Positions 1,273 through 15,488 of a stretch of 64,000 nucleotides of DNA are shown here, in pieces (the first letter of the stretch is position 1; every line of letters starts with the position of its first letter). This DNA is from Rhizobium etli CFN 42. GTDB lineage: Bacteria; Pseudomonadota; Alphaproteobacteria; Rhizobiales; Rhizobiaceae. The notes under the pieces were generated by a model. That model was not told the origin of the DNA and ran no database searches. It saw nothing but the letters and a program-made list of their open reading frames with translations. The stretch spans positions 809,001-873,000 of the forward strand of contig NC_007761.1 in the NCBI RefSeq assembly GCF_000092045.1, in the 5' to 3' direction. The translations under genes and the position numbers were made by a program.

Positions 1273-2280
1273 ATGGATGCGCAGTTCAATGAATGCATGA
1301 AGCTAGCAAGGAAGCTTGTCGACCACAGCTTCCTTGAGTCATTGAAGCGGCCTCAATCGCGCGCGATTGTCGTGGCGACTGCGATGATTTGGCTTCAGAT
1401 AATCATCTCTTGGACGATCGCGCTCCTCGGCCCTTGGTGGGTCCTATGGTTGCCATTCCTGATCAATTGCGCGGTGACGCAGGGCATGTTGCTTTGGGTT
1501 CATGAAGCATCGCATTTCCATCTTTACCCCGACCGCCGAAAGAACGATATCTGGTGCGATGTGTTCTTTGCGGCGCCTGTCGGAATGTCCGTCGCCGCAT
1601 ATCGACTGCGTCACATGAGCCACCATGCACATCTGGGCACGGAGCAGGATGCGGATGGTTATCCCTATCGCGAGCCGATCAAGGGGTTCCGGGCGCTCGC
1701 CTGGGTCATGATGAAGGCGTTGAGCGGGGGTATTGGAGTGTGGCTGGCGGCGGACAAATATGGTGGTTCCGCCCGAAAGGCGGCATCGGGAAGCTCCCTG
1801 TCGCCTTCCTGGTTTGCCCCGACGGCGACTATCATGTTCAATGGCTTGCTATTTGTGCTCTGCATTGTCACAGGTCGCTGGTATCTCTACATTCTCCTAT
1901 GGGGCTACCCCATCGCAGCCGTAGCAATTGCGCTGAATATCGTGCGAACCATTGCGGAGCATCAGCCTGAGGACTACCCACTCTACAAGGACGCTCGGGA
2001 GCAAACCATGATACCGCTTGCCCGAACGACGGTGCCCAATTGGTTTGAGAAATGGCTGATGTACCAGGCAAATTTCAACTATCACATCGAACATCACCTT
2101 TTCCCTGCCATTCCACAGCACAATCTTGCAAAACTTCATAAACACCTCTTCGAGAGAGGGTTCTATGAGCATTTTCCCGGGTGCCTACAGCGTAGCGGTT
2201 TCGCGAAATTCATCCAGTTGTCGAGGAATCGCAGGAACGATGATTTCTCCGATTCGGTTCAAGATGCGTTGGCTCTCTGA
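1273..2280 (+). CDS. Fatty acid desaturase family protein
   Basis: A 335-residue membrane di-iron desaturase/hydroxylase. Three histidine clusters of the family are visible: HEASH near residue 77, RHMSHHAH near residue 113, and NYHIEHH near residue 263. Hydrophobic segments surround them (about residues 35-75 and 180-220). These histidines bind the two irons that activate oxygen to desaturate or hydroxylate an acyl or carotenoid-like chain in the inner membrane. The substrate cannot be read from the sequence. ATG at 1273 is the natural start. The stop at 2278-2280 is one base before the ATG of the methyltransferase, so the two genes are probably co-transcribed and may modify the same lipid or glycan. 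Confidence 0.85.
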   Translation: MDAQFNECMKLARKLVDHSFLESLKRPQSRAIVVATAMIWLQIIISWTIALLGPWWVLWLPFLINCAVTQGMLLWVHEASHFHLYPDRRKNDIWCDVFFAAPVGMSVAAYRLRHMSHHAHLGTEQDADGYPYREPIKGFRALAWVMMKALSGGIGVWLAADKYGGSARKAASGSSLSPSWFAPTATIMFNGLLFVLCIVTGRWYLYILLWGYPIAAVAIALNIVRTIAEHQPEDYPLYKDAREQTMIPLARTTVPNWFEKWLMYQANFNYHIEHHLFPAIPQHNLAKLHKHLFERGFYEHFPGCLQRSGFAKFIQLSRNRRNDDFSDSVQDALAL

Positions 2281-2281
2281 G

Positions 2282-3262
2282 ATGCCGCACGCGAAAAAAA
2301 TGAGTTCTCGGGTGACAAGCCAGATAAGATCAACGTCAGCGACATGCTCCGGTTGTGGCGGTGAGAGTTTCTCCGTCGTGGCGACCGGACGGGACTACAT
2401 ATATCACGGCACTGAAGACACTTTCAGATATGTCCGATGCGGTTCCTGCGGCCATTTTTATCTCAATCCGAGGCCCGACATCAGTCAATTGTCTCTGATG
2501 TATCCGGCCAACTATGGTACCTTCTCCAACAGATTTCAGGGCCGGGCAAATATTCTCGGTCGAATCAAGACCATCGTCAATCGAAAGCGCCTGAAGGGCG
2601 TTGTCGCGCGTCTCCCTCTGCGGGGAAGGGTGCTCGATGTGGGATGTGGCAACGGCGAGCTTTTGATTGCTCTTCGTCAAGCGCGTCCCGATCTTGAACT
2701 CTTCGGTCTGGATTGGCATTTTCCGGCCGAAACGCGTAGTGCTCTGGAAACGCAGGGAATAACGATGATCGAAGCCCCGCTTGAAGCGGCGGAATTACCG
2801 GTACAGCCTTTTGACCTCATAATTATGCTCCAGCTTATAGAGCACCTTTGGGAGCCAGAAGAAAGCTTGCGACGCCTCGTCCGCGGCTTGGCGAAGGATG
2901 GTCGTATTTTAATCGAAACGCCCAATACAGACGGCTGGGATAGGCGGCTCTTTGCGGACGGCGCATGGGGCGGATATTATTTCCCGCGGCATTTGAACCT
3001 CTATAATTTCGAACGACTGGCCGAGCTCCTGCGCAGGGTAGGGTTAGCCGTCGAATCTCAACGCAATCTTCCCGCGCCTTTGATTTGGGTTTATTCCCTC
3101 CAAGGAGTTGTGCAGGCGAGTTTCGGCTGGAAGAGCTTCTTGACGACGCTTTTCGGCGTTAAAAACTTACCCTTGGTTGCGGCCTTCGCTTTGTTGGATA
3201 GCGCCGCTATCGCAATGGGGTTTATGACGTCAAACCAGCAAACAATATCGAAGAAGGCATAG
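2282..3262 (+). CDS. Class I SAM-dependent methyltransferase with N-terminal zinc ribbon
   Basis: The start chosen is ATG 2282, one base after the desaturase stop; ATG 2300 is an alternative. An upstream in-frame ATG at 2126 lies inside the desaturase and is unlikely. The product is 326 residues. An N-terminal zinc ribbon (two CxxC pairs, CSGC and CGSC, within about residues 22-52) precedes a Rossmann-fold methyltransferase with motif I VLDVGCGNGELL near residue 118 and an EHLW segment near residue 198. This architecture is common in methyltransferases of sugar-nucleotide and polysaccharide clusters. The last codons run up to an old IS66 remnant on the other strand, so the C-terminus may be slightly altered. 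The substrate is unknown. Confidence 0.8.
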   Translation: MPHAKKMSSRVTSQIRSTSATCSGCGGESFSVVATGRDYIYHGTEDTFRYVRCGSCGHFYLNPRPDISQLSLMYPANYGTFSNRFQGRANILGRIKTIVNRKRLKGVVARLPLRGRVLDVGCGNGELLIALRQARPDLELFGLDWHFPAETRSALETQGITMIEAPLEAAELPVQPFDLIIMLQLIEHLWEPEESLRRLVRGLAKDGRILIETPNTDGWDRRLFADGAWGGYYFPRHLNLYNFERLAELLRRVGLAVESQRNLPAPLIWVYSLQGVVQASFGWKSFLTTLFGVKNLPLVAAFALLDSAAIAMGFMTSNQQTISKKA

Positions 3263-3299
3263 CCGGTGAGATTGTATCACCACATGTGGATGCAAAACA

Positions 3300-3902
3300 C
3301 AGGATCATCGCCAGCAGGTTCGGCCCGGCAAAACCGCGCGGCGTCACGTGGAAAGGTGCGGGCGGCTGACTGATCTTCTCGCATTCGCGGCAGGAGAACT
3401 TCTCCCGCACAGTCTGGATGACTTTCCACTGGCGCGGGGTCACCTCCAGCGTCTCGGTGATGTCCTCGCCGAGCTTCGACAGCCTGGCGGAACCGCAGCA
3501 GCGGCAATTCGTCGGGGCTGCGATGACGACGCGCTCGCGCGGCAGGTGTTCGGGAAACGGCTTACGTGATGGACGCTTTCGCTCGAACGCCCGGACTGTA
3601 GAGGCATTGGCAGCAATCTCCGCCGCCAGTTCGTCTTCACCAGCGTCGGCTTCGAGTTCCTCGAGTTGCAGCTCCATCTGCTCGAGAAGTCGCGCCGTGC
3701 GCTCGGACCGGCTGCCATAAAGTTCACGGCGAACCTTCTCGGTCTCCAGCTTCAACCGCGCGATCAGCGCTTCTGAATGTGACACGAGCGCCTTGGCACT
3801 GGCGGCTTCCGCCTCGGCTTTCATACGCCGGGCACGCTCTTGCGCCAGCAGTGCAAGCGCACTGGCAAGATCGTCAGGAAGCTGTTCGGCCGCATCGTTC
3901 AT
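3300..3902 (-). pseudogene. tnpC: Truncated IS66-family transposase TnpC (older element)
   Basis: The first ~201 residues match IS66 TnpC. There is a coiled-coil N-terminus, the RRELYGSRSER segment, a zinc-finger region with CRCCGSARL and CREC, and the conserved run ending GPNLLAMIL. Similarity then stops at about 3300 and the frame runs into unrelated sequence to a stop at 3222, overlapping the methyltransferase 3' end on the other strand. The whole catalytic DDE half is missing, so the protein cannot transpose. It differs in sequence from the TnpC of the two intact IS66 copies nearby, so it belongs to a separate, older IS66 element. Confidence 0.85.
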
Positions 3903-3947
3903 GGTAGGATGGAATCATATTCGACCCCGCCATTCCAGTGCTTTTGC

Positions 3948-4295
3948 TCATCCTGCCGACGTCGGTCGCCAGGTTTTTTGCGGCATCCGCCAGTCTATAC
4001 CTTCCAGCAGATAACCGAGCTGCGCCGGTGTGATCACCACCGATCCATCTGTCGCCGACGGCCAGACGAAGCGTCCGCGTTCAAGCTTCTTCGTAAACAG
4101 GCAGGCTCCCTGGCCGTCATGCCAGATGACCTTGATCAGGCCACCACCGCGACCGCGGAATACGAACAGGTGTCCGCACATCGGATCGCGCTTCAGCGTC
4201 TCCTGCACCATCAGCGATAGACCGGGGAAGCCTTTGCGCATGTCCGTATGGCCTGTCGCCAGCCAGACCTTCACACCACTTGCAACCGGGATCAT
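3948..4295 (-). CDS. tnpB: IS66-family accessory protein TnpB (older element)
   Basis: A 115-residue protein with the typical TnpB pattern: an N-terminal MIPVASGVKVWLATGHTDMR, the MCGHLFVFRGR segment, VIWHDGQGACLFTKKLERG, and a C-terminal LGYLLEGIDWR. The frame appears intact. Its ATG overlaps the stop of the tnpA remnant (4292-4295), the normal IS66 coupling. With tnpC truncated and tnpA broken, it is an orphan with no likely activity. Confidence 0.85.
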   Translation of the reverse strand: MIPVASGVKVWLATGHTDMRKGFPGLSLMVQETLKRDPMCGHLFVFRGRGGGLIKVIWHDGQGACLFTKKLERGRFVWPSATDGSVVITPAQLGYLLEGIDWRMPQKTWRPTSAG

Positions 4296-4368
4296 CTCCG
4301 TTCCAGCACGACATCAAGAATGCGGCCCAGCGCCTCGACATCGATGTCGCTGTCCACGCGGATACGAC
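4292..4368 (-). pseudogene. tnpA: 3' fragment of IS66 tnpA, cut by insertion of the left IS66 copy
   Basis: The last ~24 codons of an IS66 TnpA are visible (RIRVDSDIDVEALGRIL and a final ERR before the stop at 4292-4294). The frame is broken at 4369, where the newer IS66 element begins. The 8-bp target duplication (4361-4368) lies inside this fragment. Its continuation is not on the far side of the left copy but at 7259-7292 in reverse orientation, one line of evidence for the inversion described in the findings. Confidence 0.8.
4361..4368. repeat. Target-site duplication of the first IS66 insertion, left half (GATACGAC)
   Basis: GATACGAC directly precedes the left IS66 copy. Its partner is not at the right end of the same copy. 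It is found reverse-complemented (GTCGTATC, 7285-7292) at the inner end of the right IS66 copy. Eight-bp duplications are characteristic of the IS66 family. Confidence 0.9.
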
Positions 4369-4452
4369 GTAAGCGACAAGCAGACCCCATCTGGCGAAGC
4401 AGCTTAGCGGTCGGCTATCGGTAGCGGACACGATGAACTGCTGTGAGCTTCT

Positions 4453-4836
4453 ATGTCTGCGCCTAGCTCTGGAACTAGAACTTTTCATATGATCGAGGCT
4501 GTTGCGGACCGATTTGAGGGCGCGCCTCGGCAGCTTCGGCGGCGCTGGTCGGACGATTTTAAAGCGCGTGCAGTTGCAGAGGCACTCGAGCCTGGCTCGA
4601 GCGTGTCAGCGATCGCACGTCGGCTTGATATCCATCCGTCACAACTGTTTGGCTGGCGTCGCGCCGCCCTGGGCTCTCACAAGGAGAACATAGCGCCGAT
4701 CGGTCATAAGGCAGTCACGCCATCTGCCGACGGCGCGATAATCGAAGTTCTGATTGGCGATGTCGTCGTGCGCGCTCCCGCCGATGTGGACGAAGCTCAT
4801 CTGCAGCGTGTCATCCGGGCAGTTCGCTCAGCATGA
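4453..4836 (+). CDS. tnpA: IS66-family TnpA (left copy)
   Basis: A 127-residue protein with an N-terminal helix-turn-helix of the transposase_8/IS66 Orf1 type (RRRWSDDFKARAVAEAL, then SVSAIARRLDIHPSQLFGWR, about residues 28-68). The C-terminal part (IIEVLIGDVVVRAPADVDEA) is the usual IS66 TnpA end. Proteins of this type are needed for IS66 transposition and are thought to bind DNA. ATG 4489 is an alternative start. The stop overlaps the tnpB start (ATGA, 4833-4836). Confidence 0.9.
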   Translation: MSAPSSGTRTFHMIEAVADRFEGAPRQLRRRWSDDFKARAVAEALEPGSSVSAIARRLDIHPSQLFGWRRAALGSHKENIAPIGHKAVTPSADGAIIEVLIGDVVVRAPADVDEAHLQRVIRAVRSA

Positions 4837-5177
4837 TCCCCGCAGGTGTAAAGGTCTTCCTCGCCAGTCACCCCATCGACTTTCGTAAAGGGCCGGACAG
4901 TTTGCTGTCGCTGGTGCGCGACGCCGGCAGTGATCCGTTCAATGGCTCGCTTTATGTCTTCCGGGCGAAGCGGGCGGACCGGGTCAAGATCGTCTGGTGG
5001 GATGGATCAGGGGTCTGCCTCTATTCCAAGCGGTTGGAGAAGGCGCAGTTCTGCTGGCCGCGGATCGGCCACAACCGGGTGCAGCTCAATCACGCTCAGC
5101 TCATGGCGCTCGTTGACGGCATGGACTGGAAACGGGTGCGCTCAGTGGCGGTGAAGCCGCCGGAGATTGTTGGGTAA
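4833..5177 (+). CDS. tnpB: IS66-family TnpB (left copy)
   Basis: A 114-residue accessory protein with the standard TnpB blocks: MIPAGVKVFLASHPIDFRKG, SLYVFRAKRADRVKIVWWDG, and a C-terminal LMALVDGMDWKRV. It is translationally coupled to tnpA by an ATGA overlap. Its biochemical role is not established, although members of the family are required for IS66 movement. It is identical in protein sequence to the copy at 8981-9325. Confidence 0.92.
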   Translation: MIPAGVKVFLASHPIDFRKGPDSLLSLVRDAGSDPFNGSLYVFRAKRADRVKIVWWDGSGVCLYSKRLEKAQFCWPRIGHNRVQLNHAQLMALVDGMDWKRVRSVAVKPPEIVG

Positions 5178-5250
5178 AGGGCTGCGGCGAAGTGAATCAA
5201 CCGCCTGAAAAGGCAGGAAAACCGGAGCAAATTGTGCTCTGGTAGGCCTC

Positions 5251-6843
5251 ATGACGCCGCCCGATCTACAGCTCCCGGATGATGTAGAGACCCTGAAAGC
5301 CATGGTCCTTGCCATGGCCGAGAAGGCAGCGCGCACCGATGCTCTCGAGAGCGAGGTCGCAGACCTGAAAGCCAGAAACGCCGATGCCGACGAACGCATC
5401 GAGCGACTGACCCAGATCCTGAAAGCCTTCGATCGCGCCCGCTTCGGCCGGCAATCGGAAAAGCTCGGCTCTCCGGGCATCGATGATGAGCAGCAGGCTT
5501 TTGTCTTCGAGGAAATCGAGACCGGTATCTCGGCAATCCGAGCCAAGGTAAACAAGGGTGCCGCTGATCCCGATGCGAAACGTGCACCCCGGCCGCGCAA
5601 GGGCTTTGCACCTCATCTGGAACGAGTCGAAGTGGTGATCGAGCCGGATGAACTGCACGAACACATCGGCAAACAGAAGGTGCTGATCGGAGAAGACGTC
5701 TCGGAGCGACTGGACGTCGTGCCGGCGAAGTTCCGCGTCATCGTCACCCGGCGGCCGAAGTATGCCTTCAAGAACGAAGACGGCGTCATCCAGGCAGCCG
5801 CGCCCGCGCACATCATCGAGGGTGGCATTCCAACGGAAGCGCTTCTCGCCCAGATCGCTGTCTCGAAGTATGCAGATGGCCTTCCGCTCTATCGACAGGA
5901 GGCAATCTATGCACGCGACAAGGTTGAGCTTGACCGGAAGCTGATGGCCCAATGGATGGGCAAGCTCGGCTACGAGCTCGATATCCTGGCCGACTACATC
6001 CTCGCCGAGATCAAGAAGGCTGAGCGCATCTTTGCGGACGAGACGACATTGCCAACGCTCGCGCCCGGATCCGGATCGGCAAAGACAGCCTGGCTATGGG
6101 CTTATGCGAGGGATGATAGACCCTTTGGCGGTAGTGGCCCGCCGATGGTCGCCTATCGCTTCGAAGATAGCCGCGCTGGCGATCGCGTCGCCCGGCATCT
6201 GAATGGCTATCGCGGTATCCTTCAGGTGGACGGGCATGGTGCCTACAACAAGCTTGCCCGATCTGACGGCGGCAATGACGGCGTGATGCTGGCCGGCTGC
6301 TGGTCCCATAGCAGGCGCAAGTTCTACGAACTCCACGCCTCGGACAGCTCCAAGATAGCCAGCGAGACGGTGGAATTGATGGCAAAGCTCTGGGAGGTGG
6401 AAGCGGCGGCCCGGGGGCAGAGCCCTGACGCGCGTGTCGCGGCACGTCAGGCGACATCTGCTGCAGTTGTCACTGAGCTCTTCGCCCTGTGGCAAAAGAC
6501 CCTGCCGCGGATCTCCGGCAAGTCGAAGCTCGCAGAAGCGATCCGCTATGCCACCTCGCGTCGCTCCATCTTCGAACGCTTCCTTACCGACGGCCGCATC
6601 GAGCTCGACAGCAACATCGTTGAGCGTGCCATCAGGCCCCAGACGATCACGAGAAAGAACAGTCTCTTCGCCGGCAGCGATGGCGGTGGAAGGACCTGGG
6701 CGACTATCGCCACGCTCCTTCAGACGGCGAAGATGAACAACGTGGACCCGCAGGCTTGGCTCACCCAAACACTTGAGCGGATCGCCAACGGCTGGCCGAG
6801 CAGCGATCTCGATGCACTCATGCCGTGGAATTACGCGCGCTGA
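5251..6843 (+). CDS. tnpC: IS66-family transposase TnpC (left copy)
   Basis: A full-length 530-residue DDE transposase. It has an N-terminal leucine-rich coiled coil (about residues 8-60), the RARFGRQSEKLG segment, a zinc-finger-like region before residue 150, and the catalytic core with FADETTLPTL (first Asp near residue 263), LQVDGHGAYNK (second Asp near residue 328) and RAIRP downstream of the last acidic residue (LDSNIVERAIRP). The C-terminal IS66 domain ends WNYAR. There is a 73-base gap after tnpB. Everything needed for transposition appears present. Confidence 0.95.
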   Translation: MTPPDLQLPDDVETLKAMVLAMAEKAARTDALESEVADLKARNADADERIERLTQILKAFDRARFGRQSEKLGSPGIDDEQQAFVFEEIETGISAIRAKVNKGAADPDAKRAPRPRKGFAPHLERVEVVIEPDELHEHIGKQKVLIGEDVSERLDVVPAKFRVIVTRRPKYAFKNEDGVIQAAAPAHIIEGGIPTEALLAQIAVSKYADGLPLYRQEAIYARDKVELDRKLMAQWMGKLGYELDILADYILAEIKKAERIFADETTLPTLAPGSGSAKTAWLWAYARDDRPFGGSGPPMVAYRFEDSRAGDRVARHLNGYRGILQVDGHGAYNKLARSDGGNDGVMLAGCWSHSRRKFYELHASDSSKIASETVELMAKLWEVEAAARGQSPDARVAARQATSAAVVTELFALWQKTLPRISGKSKLAEAIRYATSRRSIFERFLTDGRIELDSNIVERAIRPQTITRKNSLFAGSDGGGRTWATIATLLQTAKMNNVDPQAWLTQTLERIANGWPSSDLDALMPWNYAR

Positions 6844-6865
6844 ACGGTCTCAGCTTGCCGTTTAC

Positions 6866-6873
6866 GCTCATGA
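6866..6873. repeat. Target-site duplication of the second IS66 insertion, inner half (GCTCATGA)
   Basis: GCTCATGA abuts the right end of the left IS66 copy. It is the reverse complement of TCATGAGC at 9790-9797, which abuts the outer end of the right copy. A normal insertion would carry both halves, in direct orientation, around one element. Confidence 0.9.
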
Positions 6874-7195
6874 TGCAGAACACGGCGACGAGGTTTGCCA
6901 GTCGATCGGCCGTTCGTAGTCTTGCTTCTTCAGCCCGGCAACCGGACTTGAGGATCTTATGAAAGACCTCAATCTTCCAATGCATTGCATACCATCTGAT
7001 TTTTTCGACTGCCTCTTCGCAGCTATTCACCTCAAGGTCGGTCAGCAACTTCCACTCGATGCGCTAGCGGCCGGCCGGAGGGTTGGGCTCCACCGCATGA
7101 ATGACGGTAAGATCCAATGCAGGGTATCGCTTCTGCTTGCCGATGGGCGGGAGCACCGTAAGCGCCCGGTGAGGGCCGTCTTGCAAGGTTGAGAC
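6866..7195 (-). pseudogene. IS4-family transposase, central fragment, with internal stop
   Basis: On the minus strand this reads as an IS4/Tn5-like transposase core. The segments ALTVLPPIGKQKRYPALD and LTVIHAVEP are followed by an in-frame TAG, then RIEWKLLTDLEV, a KIRWYAMHWKIEVFHKILKS motif (with the WxIE glutamate typical of the IS4 YREK region) and a final AVFCIMS. The start of the gene is missing (similarity begins about 7195). The C-terminal part has been separated and now lies at 9790-10091. The gene was already dead because of the TAG. Confidence 0.85.
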
Positions 7196-7258
7196 GAACA
7201 TCGGAAGTCCTAGTGCAAACACTAGGAGTAGTCCTATGACGAAGCATCCGATTGAAGT

Positions 7259-7292
7259 GATGTGACGATTGAGTTGGGTCGGCCGTCGTATC
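7259..7292 (+). pseudogene. tnpA: Fragment of the older IS66 tnpA, inverted relative to its other half
   Basis: The frame GAT GTG ACG ATT GAG TTG reads DVTIEL, the block that precedes the final (R)RIRVD segment in IS66 TnpA. After one extra G it would continue into the RIRVDSD run now at 4292-4368 if the spacer were re-inverted. Only about 11 codons remain. The upstream part of tnpA is lost. The fragment is short and its identification rests mainly on the reconstruction. Confidence 0.55.
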
Positions 7293-7314
7293 GTAAACGG
7301 CAAGCTGAGACCGT

Positions 7315-8907
7315 TCAGCGCGCGTAATTCCACGGCATGAGTGCATCGAGATCGCTGCTCGGCCAGCCGTTGGCGATCCGCTCAAGTGTTTGGGTGAGCC
7401 AAGCCTGCGGGTCCACGTTGTTCATCTTCGCCGTCTGAAGGAGCGTGGCGATAGTCGCCCAGGTCCTTCCACCGCCATCGCTGCCGGCGAAGAGACTGTT
7501 CTTTCTCGTGATCGTCTGGGGCCTGATGGCACGCTCAACGATGTTGCTGTCGAGCTCGATGCGGCCGTCGGTAAGGAAGCGTTCGAAGATGGAGCGACGC
7601 GAGGTGGCATAGCGGATCGCTTCTGCGAGCTTCGACTTGCCGGAGATCCGCGGCAGGGTCTTTTGCCACAGGGCGAAGAGCTCAGTGACAACTGCAGCAG
7701 ATGTCGCCTGACGTGCCGCGACACGCGCGTCAGGGCTCTGCCCCCGGGCCGCCGCTTCCACCTCCCAGAGCTTTGCCATCAATTCCACCGTCTCGCTGGC
7801 TATCTTGGAGCTGTCCGAGGCGTGGAGTTCGTAGAACTTGCGCCTGCTATGGGACCAGCAGCCGGCCAGCATCACGCCGTCATTGCCGCCGTCAGATCGG
7901 GCAAGCTTGTTGTAGGCACCATGCCCGTCCACCTGAAGGATACCGCGATAGCCATTCAGATGCCGGGCGACGCGATCGCCAGCGCGGCTATCTTCGAAGC
8001 GATAGGCGACCATCGGCGGGCCACTACCGCCAAAGGGTCTATCATCCCTCGCATAAGCCCATAGCCAGGCTGTCTTTGCCGATCCGGATCCGGGCGCGAG
8101 CGTTGGCAATGTCGTCTCGTCCGCAAAGATGCGCTCAGCCTTCTTGATCTCGGCGAGGATGTAGTCGGCCAGGATATCGAGCTCGTAGCCGAGCTTGCCC
8201 ATCCATTGGGCCATCAGCTTCCGGTCAAGCTCAACCTTGTCGCGTGCATAGATTGCCTCCTGTCGATAGAGCGGAAGGCCATCTGCATACTTCGAGACAG
8301 CGATCTGGGCGAGAAGCGCTTCCGTTGGAATGCCACCCTCGATGATGTGCGCGGGCGCGGCTGCCTGGATGACGCCGTCTTCGTTCTTGAAGGCATACTT
8401 CGGCCGCCGGGTGACGATGACGCGGAACTTCGCCGGCACGACGTCCAGTCGCTCCGAGACGTCTTCTCCGATCAGCACCTTCTGTTTGCCGATGTGTTCG
8501 TGCAGTTCATCCGGCTCGATCACCACTTCGACTCGTTCCAGATGAGGTGCAAAGCCCTTGCGCGGCCGGGGTGCACGTTTCGCATCGGGATCAGCGGCAC
8601 CCTTGTTTACCTTGGCTCGGATTGCCGAGATACCGGTCTCGATTTCCTCGAAGACAAAAGCCTGCTGCTCATCATCGATGCCCGGAGAGCCGAGCTTTTC
8701 CGATTGCCGGCCGAAGCGGGCGCGATCGAAGGCTTTCAGGATCTGGGTCAGTCGCTCGATGCGTTCGTCGGCATCGGCGTTTCTGGCTTTCAGGTCTGCG
8801 ACCTCGCTCTCGAGAGCATCGGTGCGCGCTGCCTTCTCGGCCATGGCGAGGACCATGGCTTTCAGGGTCTCTACATCATCCGGGAGCTGTAGATCGGGCG
8901 GCGTCAT
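7315..8907 (-). CDS. tnpC: IS66-family transposase TnpC (right copy)
   Basis: A 530-residue protein, identical in amino acid sequence to the left-copy TnpC: N-terminal coiled coil, zinc-finger region, DDE core (FADETTLPTL and LQVDGHGAYNK) and C-terminal WNYAR. The frame is intact. Because both copies are complete, either could supply transposition functions in trans to the other. Confidence 0.95.
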   Translation of the reverse strand: MTPPDLQLPDDVETLKAMVLAMAEKAARTDALESEVADLKARNADADERIERLTQILKAFDRARFGRQSEKLGSPGIDDEQQAFVFEEIETGISAIRAKVNKGAADPDAKRAPRPRKGFAPHLERVEVVIEPDELHEHIGKQKVLIGEDVSERLDVVPAKFRVIVTRRPKYAFKNEDGVIQAAAPAHIIEGGIPTEALLAQIAVSKYADGLPLYRQEAIYARDKVELDRKLMAQWMGKLGYELDILADYILAEIKKAERIFADETTLPTLAPGSGSAKTAWLWAYARDDRPFGGSGPPMVAYRFEDSRAGDRVARHLNGYRGILQVDGHGAYNKLARSDGGNDGVMLAGCWSHSRRKFYELHASDSSKIASETVELMAKLWEVEAAARGQSPDARVAARQATSAAVVTELFALWQKTLPRISGKSKLAEAIRYATSRRSIFERFLTDGRIELDSNIVERAIRPQTITRKNSLFAGSDGGGRTWATIATLLQTAKMNNVDPQAWLTQTLERIANGWPSSDLDALMPWNYAR

Positions 8908-8980
8908 GAGGCCTACCAGAGCACAATTTGCTCCGGTTTTCCTGCCTTTTCAGGCGGTTGATTCACTTCGCCGCAGCCCT

Positions 8981-9325
8981 TTACCCAACAATCTCCGGCG
9001 GCTTCACCGCCACTGAGCGCACCCGTTTCCAGTCCATGCCGTCAACGAGCGCCATGAGCTGAGCGTGATTGAGCTGCACCCGGTTGTGGCCGATCCGCGG
9101 CCAGCAGAACTGCGCCTTCTCCAACCGCTTGGAATAGAGGCAGACCCCTGATCCATCCCACCAGACGATCTTGACCCGGTCCGCCCGCTTCGCCCGGAAG
9201 ACATAAAGCGAGCCATTGAACGGATCACTGCCGGCGTCGCGCACCAGCGACAGCAAACTGTCCGGCCCTTTACGAAAGTCGATGGGGTGACTGGCGAGGA
9301 AGACCTTTACACCTGCGGGGATCAT
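8981..9325 (-). CDS. tnpB: IS66-family TnpB (right copy)
   Basis: A 114-residue protein identical to the left-copy TnpB (MIPAGVKVFLASHPIDFRKG at the N-terminus, LMALVDGMDWKRV near the end). It overlaps the upstream tnpA by ATGA at 9322-9325 and is followed after 73 bases by tnpC. Confidence 0.92.
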   Translation of the reverse strand: MIPAGVKVFLASHPIDFRKGPDSLLSLVRDAGSDPFNGSLYVFRAKRADRVKIVWWDGSGVCLYSKRLEKAQFCWPRIGHNRVQLNHAQLMALVDGMDWKRVRSVAVKPPEIVG

Positions 9326-9705
9326 GCTGAGCGAACTGCCCGGATGACACGCTGCAGATGAGCTTCGTCCACATCGGCGGGAGCGCGCACGACGACATCG
9401 CCAATCAGAACTTCGATTATCGCGCCGTCGGCAGATGGCGTGACTGCCTTATGACCGATCGGCGCTATGTTCTCCTTGTGAGAGCCCAGGGCGGCGCGAC
9501 GCCAGCCAAACAGTTGTGACGGATGGATATCAAGCCGACGTGCGATCGCTGACACGCTCGAGCCAGGCTCGAGTGCCTCTGCAACTGCACGCGCTTTAAA
9601 ATCGTCCGACCAGCGCCGCCGAAGCTGCCGAGGCGCGCCCTCAAATCGGTCCGCAACAGCCTCGATCATATGAAAAGTTCTAGTTCCAGAGCTAGGCGCA
9701 GACAT
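9322..9705 (-). CDS. tnpA: IS66-family TnpA (right copy)
   Basis: A 127-residue protein identical to the left-copy TnpA, with the helix-turn-helix near residues 28-68 (SVSAIARRLDIHPSQLFGWR). It is the first gene of the right copy. The 84 bases between its start and the element end (9789) presumably hold the promoter. Confidence 0.9.
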   Translation of the reverse strand: MSAPSSGTRTFHMIEAVADRFEGAPRQLRRRWSDDFKARAVAEALEPGSSVSAIARRLDIHPSQLFGWRRAALGSHKENIAPIGHKAVTPSADGAIIEVLIGDVVVRAPADVDEAHLQRVIRAVRSA

Positions 9706-9789
9706 AGAAGCTCACAGCAGTTCATCGTGTCCGCTACCGATAGCCGACCGCTAAGCTGCTTCGCCAGATGGGGTCTGCTTGTCGCTTAC

Positions 9790-9797
9790 TCATGAGC
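9790..9797. repeat. Target-site duplication of the second IS66 insertion, outer half (TCATGAGC)
   Basis: This octamer flanks the outer end of the right IS66 copy. Its duplicate sits at 6866-6873 in reverse complement, at the inner end of the left copy. Together with the 4361-4368/7285-7292 pair it records an exchange between the two elements. Confidence 0.9.
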
Positions 9798-10091
9798 TGG
9801 AGAGTGCTCTGGTTGACAATGCTCGCGCGCACCGCACCCGAAACACCGCCAACTGCGGCTCTCACCGAACAGGAAATTGAAATCCTCGATCAAATGGTCA
9901 GCAATGTAGGCAACCGGCAGACGACGCCGGGATCGCTAGTCTTCTATCTCACCAAACTCGCTCGTTTAGGCGGTTACCTTGCAAGAACATCAGATCCACC
10001 ACCGGGAAATACGGTCGTCTGGCGCGGCCTCAGCCGGTTGACAGATATTCGCCTCGGAACCGAAATAGCAGCGACGCCCAGATGTGGGTAA
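9790..10091 (+). pseudogene. IS4-family transposase, C-terminal fragment
   Basis: Reading from the IS66 border, the frame encodes MSWRVLWLTMLARTAPETPP, then ALTEQEIEILDQM and a stop at 10089-10091. This is the C-terminal end of an IS4/Tn5-like transposase. It continues the fragment at 6866-7195 exactly: the shared TCATGAGC codes for the (I)MS where the two halves meet. The apparent ATG at 9768 lies in the IS66 terminus and is not a real start. Confidence 0.85.
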
Positions 10092-10136
10092 TCGCAAGCC
10101 GGTGAAGGCCGTGTCAATTACTGGGGCAGGTCAGGT

Positions 10137-11219
10137 CTATAAATGGGCGGGCGATGTCTTTATCCAATATTGATTGGGGCCAAGAGAAAATGTTCCTTCC
10201 GAAAAGGTCCCTGTTGCTTCAATTCCAAGTTTTGTACGGATTTTCTCAAGATCCAATCCGAGTTGTGGAGAAAAATCTGACAAATTTTGTAATCCAGTTG
10301 GGGTCTGTGGGGCAAAGAAACTGGCAGTCTCAGTCAATGTGCGCGGAACCAGCCCAGTACCGCGCCATGATCCGACCAGCTGTGCGAATTGATCGGTGAA
10401 TGTAGACCGCCATGCATTTTTTCTGGACGCAGGAATCACCTCGTTCAGATAATCTGCTGTGATGGGATTGGGTGAAAACGCCACATCAGAAGGCGGGGCG
10501 TAAAAGCGAAAATAGATCGGCAGATCGACGTCTTCTCCCACCTCAAATAAGCGCTTGCGATCATCCGGAGAAGCGCTGGATAGTATCGTCAGAATGTCTG
10601 AATCCACGTCGCGCCAGTGGCGAAATACGTTTGTGTTCGCGTCCAGGAGGTAGGCCGTTTGCCCAGTTTCATCATAAGCACTGACGATGACATGACCAGG
10701 CAATGCGTTAGTAAAGATCGTGATGATCGCGCTTCGGATGCCTACCGCTTCAAGCAGGATAGATAGCCGGATCGAAACGTCGTAACAATTTCCGTCAATA
10801 GCCGTAAGCATGTCTGGAAACGTGAGCAATGGAAGAGCGCGGGTCTTATAGACAGGCATGCTGCCGTTCGCGCGAAGCACGAGGAAGAGGATGAACTTTT
10901 CGCTATCGGTCAGATGCGGGAATCGCTGGTCGATTGATGAACGCTCTCCTTGAAAATCTTTGGTCATTTGATCGCGTAGGAGCGATCGCAATTCGGGGAT
11001 AGTAACATCCGAATCAATTATCGGACGACGGAAAGATTGAAGGAAATTGAGATCCTCTTTCGATATCCCAGCTTCTAGCTTCACCTCGCGAGGGCCGTTG
11101 GGGCTTTCGACGAACGCAATTGTCTTCTCGCGGGGAAATGCAATCGCTACGCCGGCAATTGCAATCATTGCCGCAGCTGCTCCGCTTAACCAATAATTTC
11201 CGATCTGCTTGAAAATCAT
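10137..11219 (-). CDS. Transglutaminase-like domain protein, membrane-anchored or exported
   Basis: A 360-residue protein. It starts with a single hydrophobic segment (about residues 8-28, GAAAAMIAIAGVAIAFP) that could be a signal anchor. The middle holds a transglutaminase-like triad: DGNCYDVSIRLSILLEAVG (Cys near residue 144), GHVIVSAYDE (His near residue 175) and LLDANTN (Asp near residue 193). In bacteria this fold is usually a protease, amidase or transpeptidase-like enzyme rather than a true transglutaminase. The C-terminal half shows no domain I recognise. It stands alone between mobile elements, next to a polysaccharide locus, so it may have been part of the same accessory cluster. 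The substrate is unknown. Confidence 0.7.
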   Translation of the reverse strand: MIFKQIGNYWLSGAAAAMIAIAGVAIAFPREKTIAFVESPNGPREVKLEAGISKEDLNFLQSFRRPIIDSDVTIPELRSLLRDQMTKDFQGERSSIDQRFPHLTDSEKFILFLVLRANGSMPVYKTRALPLLTFPDMLTAIDGNCYDVSIRLSILLEAVGIRSAIITIFTNALPGHVIVSAYDETGQTAYLLDANTNVFRHWRDVDSDILTILSSASPDDRKRLFEVGEDVDLPIYFRFYAPPSDVAFSPNPITADYLNEVIPASRKNAWRSTFTDQFAQLVGSWRGTGLVPRTLTETASFFAPQTPTGLQNLSDFSPQLGLDLEKIRTKLGIEATGTFSEGTFSLGPNQYWIKTSPAHL

Positions 11220-11372
11220 GCTTTAGACCTTTGACTAGCCGAACTCACGAGTAATTGCCCGAAGAGCGAAGTGTCAAGCGCTGCTGAGGCGGTAGGGCTT
11301 CATCGATGTCAGTCCGCGACGGTGGAGTACACGATGCACGAGCGCTGGCGGGGGCACGGTGACCTGATGTGG

Positions 11373-12704
11373 TGGACGGCCTCCGCACCCGGCATCGCAA
11401 TGTGCCAAAGTGTGGCTGTCGAAAGTCACATAAGGGAGAGCCGTCCATGGAGAAGATTACCACAATTGGTCTGGATATCGCCAAGCATGTATTTCAGGTT
11501 CACGGGATCAATGGTGCCGGCGCGACGGTGAACCGCCGCAAGCTGCGCCGCGACGATGTCGTTGGATTCTTCAAGGCATTGCCGCCATGCCTGATCGGAA
11601 TCGAGGCATGCGCGACTGGACACCACTGGGCTCGGGTTCTTATGGCGCTGGGTCACGAGGTTCGGCTGATGCCGGCGTCTTACGTCAAGCCATATGTGAA
11701 GCGGCAGAAGAATGACGCGACGGATGCCGAGGCGATTTGCGAGGCGGTGACGCGGCCGACGATGCGCTTCGTTCCAGTGAAAAGCGAGGAGCAACAGGGT
11801 GTGCTGATGCGGCATCGGGTCCGCGAGCTTTTGATCCGGCAGCGGACAATGCTGGTGAACGCCTTGCGCGGCCACTTGGCGGAGTTCGGCATCGTAACGC
11901 GACAGGGCATTGCCGGCGTCGGAATGCTGATCGCGTTGGTCGACGACGATGATCACGATCTAATCCCGCCGCTTGCGCGGTCCGCGCTTCTTCCCCTAAT
12001 CGGGCAGTTGCGGGAGGTGCACGAGAAGGTCAGAGAGCTGGATCGCCAAATTCATGCTTGGCATCGCTCGAACGAACTGAGCCGCCGCCTTGAGACGATC
12101 CCTGGAATTGGCCCGATCACTGCCAGCGCAATTGCCGCGACGGTGACCGACGCGTCGTTCTTCAAATCCGGCCGACAATTGGCGGCATGGATAGGCCTGG
12201 TGCCGCGGCAGAACTCATCGGGTGGCAAGGACCGCCTCGGAAGGATCAGCAAACAAGGCGATCCCTATCTCCGCCGGCTTCTTGTTGTGGGCGCGCATGC
12301 GGTGCTTCGTTTCAGCGGCAAGGCTAAAGTTGCACCGACGCGTTGGGCCGCCGAACTTCTGCCGCACAACTTCGTCGCTGTTGCTTTGGCCAACAAGATG
12401 GTGCGGATCGTCTGGGCGTTGATGACGACGGGCAGGCGCTTTGAGGCGACCGCTGCCCTTTGAATGCTCACAGAGGATGCAGAAATTGGTGAGGTGCTGA
12501 TGGCGTGATGGCGAACGGTCGAGCCGGGATCGGACAAACCCGATCAGTGGGTGCCGCTTGAAAGCATTGACCTGTCTGGGATCCGATCAGCGGACTACAT
12601 CAGGGCCAGCGGCATGAACGCGCCGCAATCAAAGGCCGTATACATGCCTGCACCCGACCAATCTGCCAGAAACACTAACTGCCCCTTGCCACGGAGGCCG
12701 TCCA
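11373..12704 (+). mobile_element. IS110-family element, IS1111-type
   Basis: One intact transposase gene (11447-12463) is bracketed by a 13-bp inverted repeat, TGGACGGCCTCCG at 11373-11385 and its reverse complement at 12692-12704. Subterminal inverted repeats of this kind distinguish the IS1111 group from other IS110 elements. The true ends lie a few bases outside these repeats and cannot be set without an empty site. The long non-coding stretch after the gene (12464-12691) belongs to the element. Confidence 0.75.
11447..12463 (+). CDS. IS110-family (IS1111 group) transposase
   Basis: A 338-residue protein from ATG 11447, preceded by AAGGGAGAG as ribosome-binding site. The frame is open from further upstream, but that extension has no family features. 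The N-terminal DEDD (RuvC-like) domain starts with TTIGLDIAKHVFQVHG (Asp near residue 10) and includes the conserved KNDATDAEAI block (about residues 86-95). The C-terminal Tnp_20 domain has ETIPGIGPITASAI (about residue 216) and GLVPRQNSSGGKDRLGRISK. It appears complete and probably active. Confidence 0.92.
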   Translation: MEKITTIGLDIAKHVFQVHGINGAGATVNRRKLRRDDVVGFFKALPPCLIGIEACATGHHWARVLMALGHEVRLMPASYVKPYVKRQKNDATDAEAICEAVTRPTMRFVPVKSEEQQGVLMRHRVRELLIRQRTMLVNALRGHLAEFGIVTRQGIAGVGMLIALVDDDDHDLIPPLARSALLPLIGQLREVHEKVRELDRQIHAWHRSNELSRRLETIPGIGPITASAIAATVTDASFFKSGRQLAAWIGLVPRQNSSGGKDRLGRISKQGDPYLRRLLVVGAHAVLRFSGKAKVAPTRWAAELLPHNFVAVALANKMVRIVWALMTTGRRFEATAAL

Positions 12705-12806
12705 TACATGCCACTGAACTTTCATCCAGCGGCGACTAGAGCCTCGGCGGTTTTTGAACCGCTCCCAAACGTTGGACCACCGGATGCTAGAGTTTTCCGG
12801 CTTTAT
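12464..12806. other. Non-coding 3' part of the IS110 element and junction sequence
   Basis: Positions 12464-12704 are the non-coding tail of the IS1111-type element, including its right subterminal repeat. From 12705 to 12806 I see no gene or repeat. Short open frames here have no recognisable features. Confidence 0.5.
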
Positions 12807-12905
12807 TCAGGGAGGCGGGCTGGTTGCGCACCCTGAATTCACCAACGAGATCGGCACCTTGTTGCCGATCGCACCATGAGGTCTTTCCTCATTGTACAAC
12901 ACGAC
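12807..12905 (-). pseudogene. IS3-family transposase (OrfB), C-terminal remnant
   Basis: The minus strand encodes [20 protein letters not shown] and then about a dozen residues to a stop. The YNExRPH.AIGN block is the well-known C-terminal end of IS3-family OrfB integrases. Nothing of the catalytic DDE part remains upstream. This scrap overlaps the 5' end of the next gene on the other strand, showing that an IS3-type element once inserted there. Confidence 0.75.
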
Positions 12906-13429
12906 GACAGAACACCCACGGGACCGAGGTTCGCGAGCTTTTGTATCCGTGGCATCCCTGGTCCGGACGGCTCGTTCACGTGCATGAGTCTGTGTCCAAA
13001 GGGACGCATATTTTCCGCTGCAGCCTTTCTGGTTCTTCTTCTGGTCGACTTCTTGAGGTCCCGTCGTGGATGTTCGACCGATCAGTGAGTGGTTGTTGGC
13101 GCAGCCTGCCGATTCCGCACGTCGATCTCGCAAGCCTGCATATTTTGGCAAGATTGCTGAAGGACGCTGATGCCTCATCGCAATCTTCGGTAATGGGCGC
13201 AGCATTGGTCTCTCACGAAACGAGTCGGAGAGATGTTCATGCCTCGCCAGCCCATGACATGCCAGTTCGATCTGTTCTCGGCCCCGCAGCGGGGGAAGAC
13301 GGCAGGGACGCCGCAATGGCCGGAGTTGCCGGAGGAGACCCGCCACGCGTTGACGGTGCTCATCGTGCGGCTGTTCGTCGATCACGCAAAGTGCGGACAT
13401 GCCTCCCAACAGAAGGAGGCCGGTCATGA
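12824..13429 (+). CDS. DUF5372-like protein of the recombinase module, 5' end replaced by IS3 remnant
   Basis: The recognisable part starts near 12914 ([20 protein letters not shown]) and continues with [20 protein letters not shown] and [14 protein letters not shown] know this pattern from small proteins encoded upstream of a serine recombinase in rhizobia (DUF5372 by memory). The first ~30 codons (12824-12913) are antisense to the IS3 scrap, so the native start is probably lost and the gene may be inactive. The frame runs past the domain to 13429, overlapping the next two genes. Function is unknown. Confidence 0.5.
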
Positions 13430-13436
13430 TGCATGA
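13233..13436 (+). CDS. Small conserved protein preceding serine recombinase
   Basis: A 67-residue protein (65 if ATG 13239 is used). It has a short N-terminal CQFDLFSAP segment and a C-terminal [20 protein letters not shown] helix-like region. I recognise this as the small partner gene that sits between the DUF5372-like gene and the recombinase in rhizobial mobile modules. It overlaps the recombinase start by 11 bases, which suggests coupled translation. Its role is unknown. Confidence 0.55.
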
Positions 13437-15488
13437 GAAGATCGGGCCGCATCATCTGGAGCGGAAGGCCATCCTCTATGTTCGGCAGTCCTCGGCTCAC
13501 CAGGTTCTGCACAATCGAGAGAGCAGCGCCCTCCAATACGCCATGCGCGACCGTCTGGCAGCGCTTGGATGGTCACATATAGAAACGGTGGACGACGACC
13601 TTGGTCGTTCGGCCGCCGGCGGCGTGACCCGCGCTGGACTTGATCGGATGGTGGCGGAAGTCTGCCTTGGCAAGGTCGGCGCCGTGGCCGCGCGTGAGGT
13701 ATCGCGCTTCGCCCGGAACAGCCGCGATTGGCAGCAACTCATCGAGATGTGCCGCGTTGTCGATACCGTCCTGGTCGATCAGGAAGCAGTTTATGCGCCC
13801 CGCCAGGGCAACGACCGCCTGCTCTTGGGTTTGAAGGGCAGCCTCAACGAATATGAACTCGATCTCTTGCGTCAGCGTTCCCTTTCCGCCCGCTATGAGA
13901 AGGCTCGCCGCGGTGAGCTCGTCGTCACTGTTCCGGCCGGCTTCGTAAAGGCCGGTGATAGGATCGAGAAGGATCCCGACCGACGCATCCAGGAAGCCAT
14001 CGCACTCGTCTTCAACAAGGTCACCGAACTCGGGAGTGCCCGGCAGGCCTTGCTATGGTTCCTTGAGCAGGGATTGGACCTGCCCGTCAGGTGCGCCAAC
14101 GGTGACGTCATCTGGCGCAGGCCAAATTATGCCACCATCCACCGGATGATTGCGAACCCGATCTACGGCGGCGCTTACGCGTATGGTAAGAGTCGCTCCG
14201 TGCCCCGATACGATGACCGGTCTGGAATTCGCCGCAAGGCGCGTGATGAATGGCTGGCGCTGATCCCGGATGCGCACGAAGGTTACATCAGTTGGGACGG
14301 GCGGAGGAGATCCGCAAGATGGTCAGCGACAATGTACCGGCCAGTCGCCATCATGGAGCGCCGAAGCATGGCGACGCTCTGCTTGCCGGCCTTTTCCGCT
14401 GCAAAAGGTGCGGCCGGAAGCTGACGGTTCGTTACACAGGCGCCAACCATAACATCCCACGCTATTCCTGTTGGCGCGGTCTACTCGATAATGGCGAACC
14501 ACGTTGCATCGCCTTCGGCGGTCTGCGGGTCGATGATGCGATCGAGGAGGCGCTGCTCGGCGTGGTCGAACCAGGAGCCATTGCCGCCGCCATCGAGGCG
14601 GAACGCAATATGGCCAGCCAACGCGATCAGGTTCAGGATGTCCTGCTTCGCGACCTCGAGGCAGCACGCTATGGAGCCGACCGGGCATTCCGGCAATATG
14701 ACGCGGCCGATCCGGAGAACAGACTTGTAACGTCTGAGCTCGAAGCGCGCTGGAATAAGACACTCGCACGCGTCGGCGAGATCGAGGCCAGGATTGCCAA
14801 ACATCGGACAGTTACGCCGCAGCCGTTCCCCATGTCCGCATCACAGGTAACCGCACTTGCGGGAAACCTTCGCACCGTCTGGACGGCGCCGACAACCGAT
14901 GCAAGGCTGAAGAAGCGCATCGTGCGCACGCTCATCAATGAAGTGGTCGCCGATCTCGATGATGGAACCTCTGAGATCGTCCTCGTCATTCATTGGGTTG
15001 GAGGCGTCCACACCGAGCTGCGCCTGCCGAAGCGACGCCGTGGCCAAAGAAACGCGACCCCTGACGACATTGTCGACGCTGTCAGACAGGTCGTCTTGAT
15101 CGCCAATGATGATGTGATTGCCGGTGTCCTCAATCGCAACGGACTGACGACCGGCAATGGCAATCGCTGGACACGGGAGCGGGTCACCGCGCTGAGGTCA
15201 TATCGCAAGATTCCGGTCTTCCGTCCCCAGATCGACGGGGTCGAGCCGTGGCTTAATCTGGGCGGTGCGGCGAAGTTGCTCGGGATAACGCCAAAGACGC
15301 TGCGTCTGGCGGCCGAGGCGGGCGATATTGAGGGGGTTCATCCGCTACCCGATGGCCCATGGATCTTCAGCCGTTCCAAACTCGCGACCCCACAAGCACG
15401 TCAGATCCTCAATCATGCCCGGAAGAACCCTCGCCACCCCGCGGGATCGCCTCCAGATCAGGAAAACCTATTCCCTTCAATGACATAG
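13426..15488 (+). pseudogene. Large serine recombinase, frameshifted by one base near 14299
   Basis: The start at ATG 13426 has a good AGGAGG site (13414-13419). The N-terminal resolvase domain has the nucleophile region [13 protein letters not shown] (Ser near residue 24) and [15 protein letters not shown] with catalytic arginines. The recombinase domain follows, then a zinc ribbon (CKRCGRK, then later CW and C) and a coiled coil, with the C-terminus at 15488. Near 14299 the frame slips: TGG GA- CGG GCG GAG lacks one base, and the protein continues in the frame starting 14250. Repairing it gives about 687 residues. The break sits between the recombinase domain and the zinc ribbon, so the product is probably inactive. 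Confidence 0.85.

Follow-up and report, generated by a model that had tools for sequence, protein, structure and literature searches.

In Rhizobium etli CFN42, a bacterium of bean nodules, two insertion sequence (IS) copies of the IS66 family stand face to face around a 427-bp spacer, and the 8-bp target duplications at their inner ends are exchanged between them. The spacer, as assembled, is well supported as being inverted relative to its original orientation, judging from sequence comparison with other copies of the two older mobile elements that the pair interrupts. The stretch of 64,000 nucleotides that holds the pair (the window; positions 809001-873000 of contig C2, in a genome of 6,530,228 bp and 7 contigs) had previously been interpreted from its letters alone. 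That sequence-only reading had described two 2,497-bp IS66-family copies facing each other, an exchange of their 8-bp flanks and an inverted spacer; all three descriptions hold in our analysis, the last of them for the spacer as assembled.

The two copies (Table 1) differ at a single base, IS position 942, where copy 1 has T and copy 2 has C. Of the six full copies in this genome, copy 2 alone has the C, which thus decides nothing about separate origins of the two. The features of IS66 membership are present, namely tnpA, tnpB, a DDE-type tnpC, terminal inverted repeats and an 8-bp target duplication, and the Pfam matches are HTH_Tnp_1, TnpB_IS66 and DDE_Tnp_IS66 along with its C-terminal, leucine-zipper and zinc-finger parts. 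A relative of the copies in R. leguminosarum BT01, 99.7-99.8% identical to them, carries the annotation ISRel15 family. The six near-identical genome copies, taken by themselves, suggest recent transposition activity of this element. On the plus strand copy 1 is flanked by GATACGAC and GCTCATGA, copy 2 by GTCGTATC and TCATGAGC, and neither copy's own pair matches. Each octamer is matched, as its reverse complement, at the other copy, the outer-left with the inner-right and the inner-left with the outer-right. Given the base composition of the window, two such 8-mer matches at fixed positions would arise by chance with a probability of about 5e-10. All four of the remaining full copies in the genome have a perfect 8-bp repeat at their own ends.

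Table 1. The inverted IS66 pair, its octamers and the older elements that it interrupts, in window coordinates.
Position	Strand	Feature	Remarks
3299-4368	-	Older truncated IS66 element	tnpC start, tnpB and tnpA end; split at site X
4361-4368	+	GATACGAC	Outer octamer, site X, left of copy 1
4369-6865	+	IS66-family copy 1	2,497 bp; ends GTAAGCG...CGTTTAC
4453-4836		tnpA of copy 1
4833-5177		tnpB of copy 1
5251-6843		tnpC of copy 1
6866-7292		Spacer	427 bp, both inner octamers included
6866-6873	-	GCTCATGA	Inner octamer; partner is TCATGAGC at 9790-9797 (site Y)
6866-7157	-	IS4-family transposase remnant, part	Inverted relative to its other part
7158-7292	+	5' end of older IS66 element	Left end GTAAGCGCC at 7158; inverted relative to its remainder
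7285-7292	-	GTCGTATC	Inner octamer; partner is GATACGAC at 4361-4368 (site X)
7293-9789	-	IS66-family copy 2	2,497 bp; facing copy 1
9790-9797	+	TCATGAGC	Outer octamer, site Y, right of copy 2
9790-10099	+	IS4-family transposase remnant, rest

When the spacer was flipped in silico, the IS4-family transposase remnant became open over 163 codons across site Y, and upon removal of both IS66 copies the two older mobile elements were continuous across sites X and Y. The flip had been predicted to restore matching flanks to each copy and to rejoin the IS4 transposase frame, which it does; that site X lies in an older IS66 element goes beyond the sequence-only reading, which named only the IS4 frame. 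Compared with the BT01 element, the older IS66 element lacks about 280 bp internally (this gap size, like the boundary at 7158, was judged by eye from alignments), and its far end is also lost. We observed that this element sits beside or inside the IS4-family remnant, and this position, together with the lost parts, implies three nested layers of mobile elements here.

The original orientation of the spacer is fixed independently of the octamers, since copies of both interrupted elements found elsewhere run through the two sites without a break in the flipped orientation. For site X this holds in R. leguminosarum BT01 and in three further loci (L026, L097 and L117), and at lower identity in two others (L002 and L088), while site Y is unbroken in L128-L131 and L134-L136. 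The IS4 element of R. etli Mim1 is likewise continuous at site Y, and the 8-bp octamer is precisely the stretch that both window pieces share on it. These comparisons concern other copies of the interrupted mobile elements, distinct from the same chromosomal locus. It had been proposed that IS-free relatives be compared for the present spacer orientation; applied to these element copies, the comparison gave the opposite, unflipped one. In the search of 40 relatives, no insertion-free version of this chromosomal locus came to light. On its right side, the frame at 10137-11219 used as a probe matched in 1 of 41 genomes, its own only. On its left side, the genes at 1273-3262 matched in 4 of 41, own included: the match on the chromosome of G002 ends at window position 3265, and the remainder of the 19.9 kb examined there had no further similarity to the window; the G055 contig stops about 300 bp past its match; and in G017 the match is confined to the final 309 bases of the query.

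With modest confidence we favour an origin of the swapped octamers through two independent insertions and a subsequent crossover between the inverted copies. One IS66-family copy would have inserted into the older IS66 remnant with the 8-bp duplication GATACGAC, and a second, in the opposite orientation, would have inserted independently into the IS4-family remnant with the duplication TCATGAGC, at sites 411 bp apart as measured from octamer to octamer. The 2.5-kb, near-identical inverted copies would later have undergone a crossover that turned the 427 bp and swapped their inner duplications. What is observed of this history is the octamer exchange and the original spacer orientation; the route through host homologous recombination, the date of the crossover and its possible recurrence are what we infer. 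Repeated flipping may be expected only from the presence of the 2.5-kb near-identical inverted repeat.

The swapped duplications had been called a clear record of homologous exchange. Homologous exchange does emerge as the better-supported mechanism, but the wording is too strong, because the same octamer arrangement results from intramolecular replicative transposition in trans, and swapped duplications alone are therefore not proof of homologous recombination. In this alternative, which we regard as unlikely yet place first among the rivals, a single IS66 copy, inserted at X or Y, takes the other site on its own molecule as a target in trans. Such a duplicative inversion creates a second, inverted copy of the element, turns round the DNA in between and splits both duplications, and split duplications with an inverted second copy are what is seen at the window pair, where moreover only one private base separates the copies. 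Intramolecular replicative inversion has been published for IS26-type elements. The portion of a review considered here sets out a scheme of replicative intramolecular transposition (PMC7986276), and the corresponding portions of two reports describe a 24-kb inversion by an IS26-type element in Klebsiella, traced through split duplications (PMC5328509), and a 1,220-kb inversion with reverse-complement octamers in Salmonella (PMC12502706). For IS66 itself, a study of Paracoccus, in the part that we draw on, takes high copy numbers, including that of the IS66 element ISPpa7, as probable replicative transposition, a claim that covers some of its elements and is inferred from copy number (PMC3281130). 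A small search of open-access literature turned up no paper that directly describes the chemistry by which IS66 transposes, and a one-step origin, if true, would amount to an IS66 mechanism that the same search did not find directly described. That the pair was made in one step, with IS66 elements able to copy themselves with inversion, seems to us improbable, if worth keeping in view.

A survey of IS66 flanks and a comparison with other close inverted pairs bear on this choice. Duplicative inversion has a sister outcome, adjacent deletion, which should leave unrelated flanks, and such flanks would be expected in many copies if intramolecular replicative transposition were frequent. We therefore compared flanks across 15 Rhizobium genomes, each in 4-8 contigs (the window's own and 14 relatives), in which 90 full-length IS66-family copies were resolved, using a copy list assembled by hand. 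Flanks matched in 85 copies and did not match in three (L149, L200 and L207), the window pair making up the other two. Among the 85, 82 are exact 8/8 repeats, one matches at 7/8 (L212), one has a 7-bp repeat (L168) and one is 8/8 with an end shifted by 2 bp (L181), L168 and L181 having been scored by eye. No partner octamer for L200 or L207 was found among the 17 and 11 fetched copies compared, respectively (the ends of one G036 group were wrong in the computed run, and this group was compared by eye); for L149 no other copy was present for comparison. The products expected of intramolecular replicative transposition thus look rare in this family, with only 3 of 90 copies bearing unrelated flanks, an argument from rate that stops short of exclusion. 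The survey leans towards two insertions and recombination.

The survey has its own scope. Matches were obtained in 59 of 148 genomes, own included, and 15 of the 58 matching relatives were taken, one of which (G087) yielded no full-length copy among its fetched loci; eight low-contig matches were left out (G027, G028, G033, G035, G085, G111, G116 and G140). Single-copy elements are under-represented, because mainly multi-copy elements were taken, from among the matches listed. The count excludes truncated or unresolved copies (L185, L201, L203, L217 and L224), along with further partial matches. Because flank agreement was one of the grounds on which copy ends were placed, matches are slightly favoured. 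In three cases two matched copies in one genome have the same octamer at both ends (L035/L147 on contig C2 of G001, L171/L182 on contig C2 of G002, and L187/L193 in G036), which suggests duplicated segments rather than two insertions; the surveyed copies are hence not all independent.

Close inverted IS66 pairs were found four times, the window pair included, and in the three others each copy retains its own duplication. These lie on a plasmid of R. leguminosarum BT01 (L001, 526-bp spacer), on a plasmid of R. binae (L157, 295-bp spacer) and on contig C2 of G036 (L197/L198, 1,422-bp spacer); the BT01 pair came from a search using the window itself. They resemble the window pair in family, in inverted arrangement and in a spacer of 0.3-1.4 kb, but differ from it in that the copies keep their own duplications, so that their spacers are in the orientation in which they were inserted. 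For the R. binae pair, an insertion-free version of the locus occurs on an R. bangladeshense plasmid, at 100% identity over the 695 bp compared, and there each octamer occurs once and the spacer is oriented as in R. binae, that is, unflipped. Of 171 plasmid records that match the R. binae pair region, only the R. binae record itself covers at least 80% of it; the spacer of this pair is present in 13 records, of which the one inspected in detail is insertion-free, and the BT01 spacer has 297 matching records. Unswapped pairs represent the stage that must precede the crossover in the recombination history, and count to that extent against duplicative inversion. They do not rule it out, because one further flip turns a swapped pair into an unswapped one.

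The frequency of close pairs points the other way. Among 174 same-element pairs, three are less than 7 kb apart start-to-start, against 0.3 expected under uniform placement of the 87 copies (some of them truncated), and all three are inverted, as duplicative inversion would have it. The window pair is one of the three, which leaves only two independent of the reason for looking. No direct pair within 7 kb was found among the 174, and one direct pair is 8.4 kb apart. The excess could be explained by clustering in mobile-element-rich regions, and direct close pairs may be lost through recombination.

Several points weigh against two insertions with a crossover. First, this history needs three events, whereas duplicative inversion reaches the same octamer arrangement with fewer, an insertion and one event more. 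Second, the private C at position 942 is compatible with either history. Third, an unswapped pair could itself represent a duplicative inversion plus one flip. Lastly, in a wider, draft-rich set, in which some loci are counted twice, 12 of 96 rows were not 8/8 (84 were); in another 60 rows the ends could not be resolved. On the whole we consider homologous recombination the likelier, if unproven, of the two mechanisms.

An assembly error comes next among the alternatives and is, in our judgement, also unlikely. Here the true chromosome would have the unflipped spacer and ordinary duplications, the 427 bp having been placed backwards between near-identical arms. Such a misplacement is easily made with a spacer this short between arms this long and alike, and it would produce exactly the picture described above. 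The genome was presumably finished in the Sanger era; the spacer orientation would then rest on clone pairs, because the 2.5-kb arms are longer than a Sanger read. Two features speak, weakly, for the assembly: it comprises 7 contigs, and it distinguishes the two copies at one base.

Phase variation, with the IS pair driving a functional inversion switch, was rejected as very improbable, for although inverted repeats do surround a short invertible segment, the spacer consists of IS4 and IS66 remnants only and a consensus scan of 6800-7360 returned no sigma-70-type promoter-like site, other promoter types lying outside that scan. No phenotype is expected, because the spacer holds element remnants only. 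Beyond the pair, an IS110-family transposase gene and a serine recombinase gene (11369-14424, the latter at 13399-14424) mark the region as rich in mobile elements. Between these and the pair lies a 360-codon frame on the minus strand (10137-11219) for which Pfam gave no match at E 0.001 and the 40 relatives none at the DNA level; it contains what we take, by eye, to be a transglutaminase-like stretch.

The trace left at this IS66 pair is neat but of a well-known kind, of which it is a new instance. It provides a clean case of rearrangement history read from target duplications, with the caution that swapped duplications cannot tell recombination from replicative transposition, and the recurring close inverted IS66 pairs offer a small natural collection in which to study the movement of IS66 elements. 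Inversions by IS26/IS15-type elements, as far as the cited portions of those reports extend, share with the window pair two inverted copies, split 8-bp duplications, an inverted segment and a history recovered from the flanks; they differ in belonging to the IS6 family, in having a described replicative mechanism and in the size of the segment, 24 kb to 1.2 Mb compared to 427 bp here. In a further study, missing duplications were explained by recombination between identical IS copies and by adjacent deletions (PMC11708052). The link to the window pair is the naming of recombination between identical copies as a cause; the cases themselves, in the part considered, concern IS150, IS5 and IS481, without IS66, in laboratory lines of E. 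coli and Pseudomonas.

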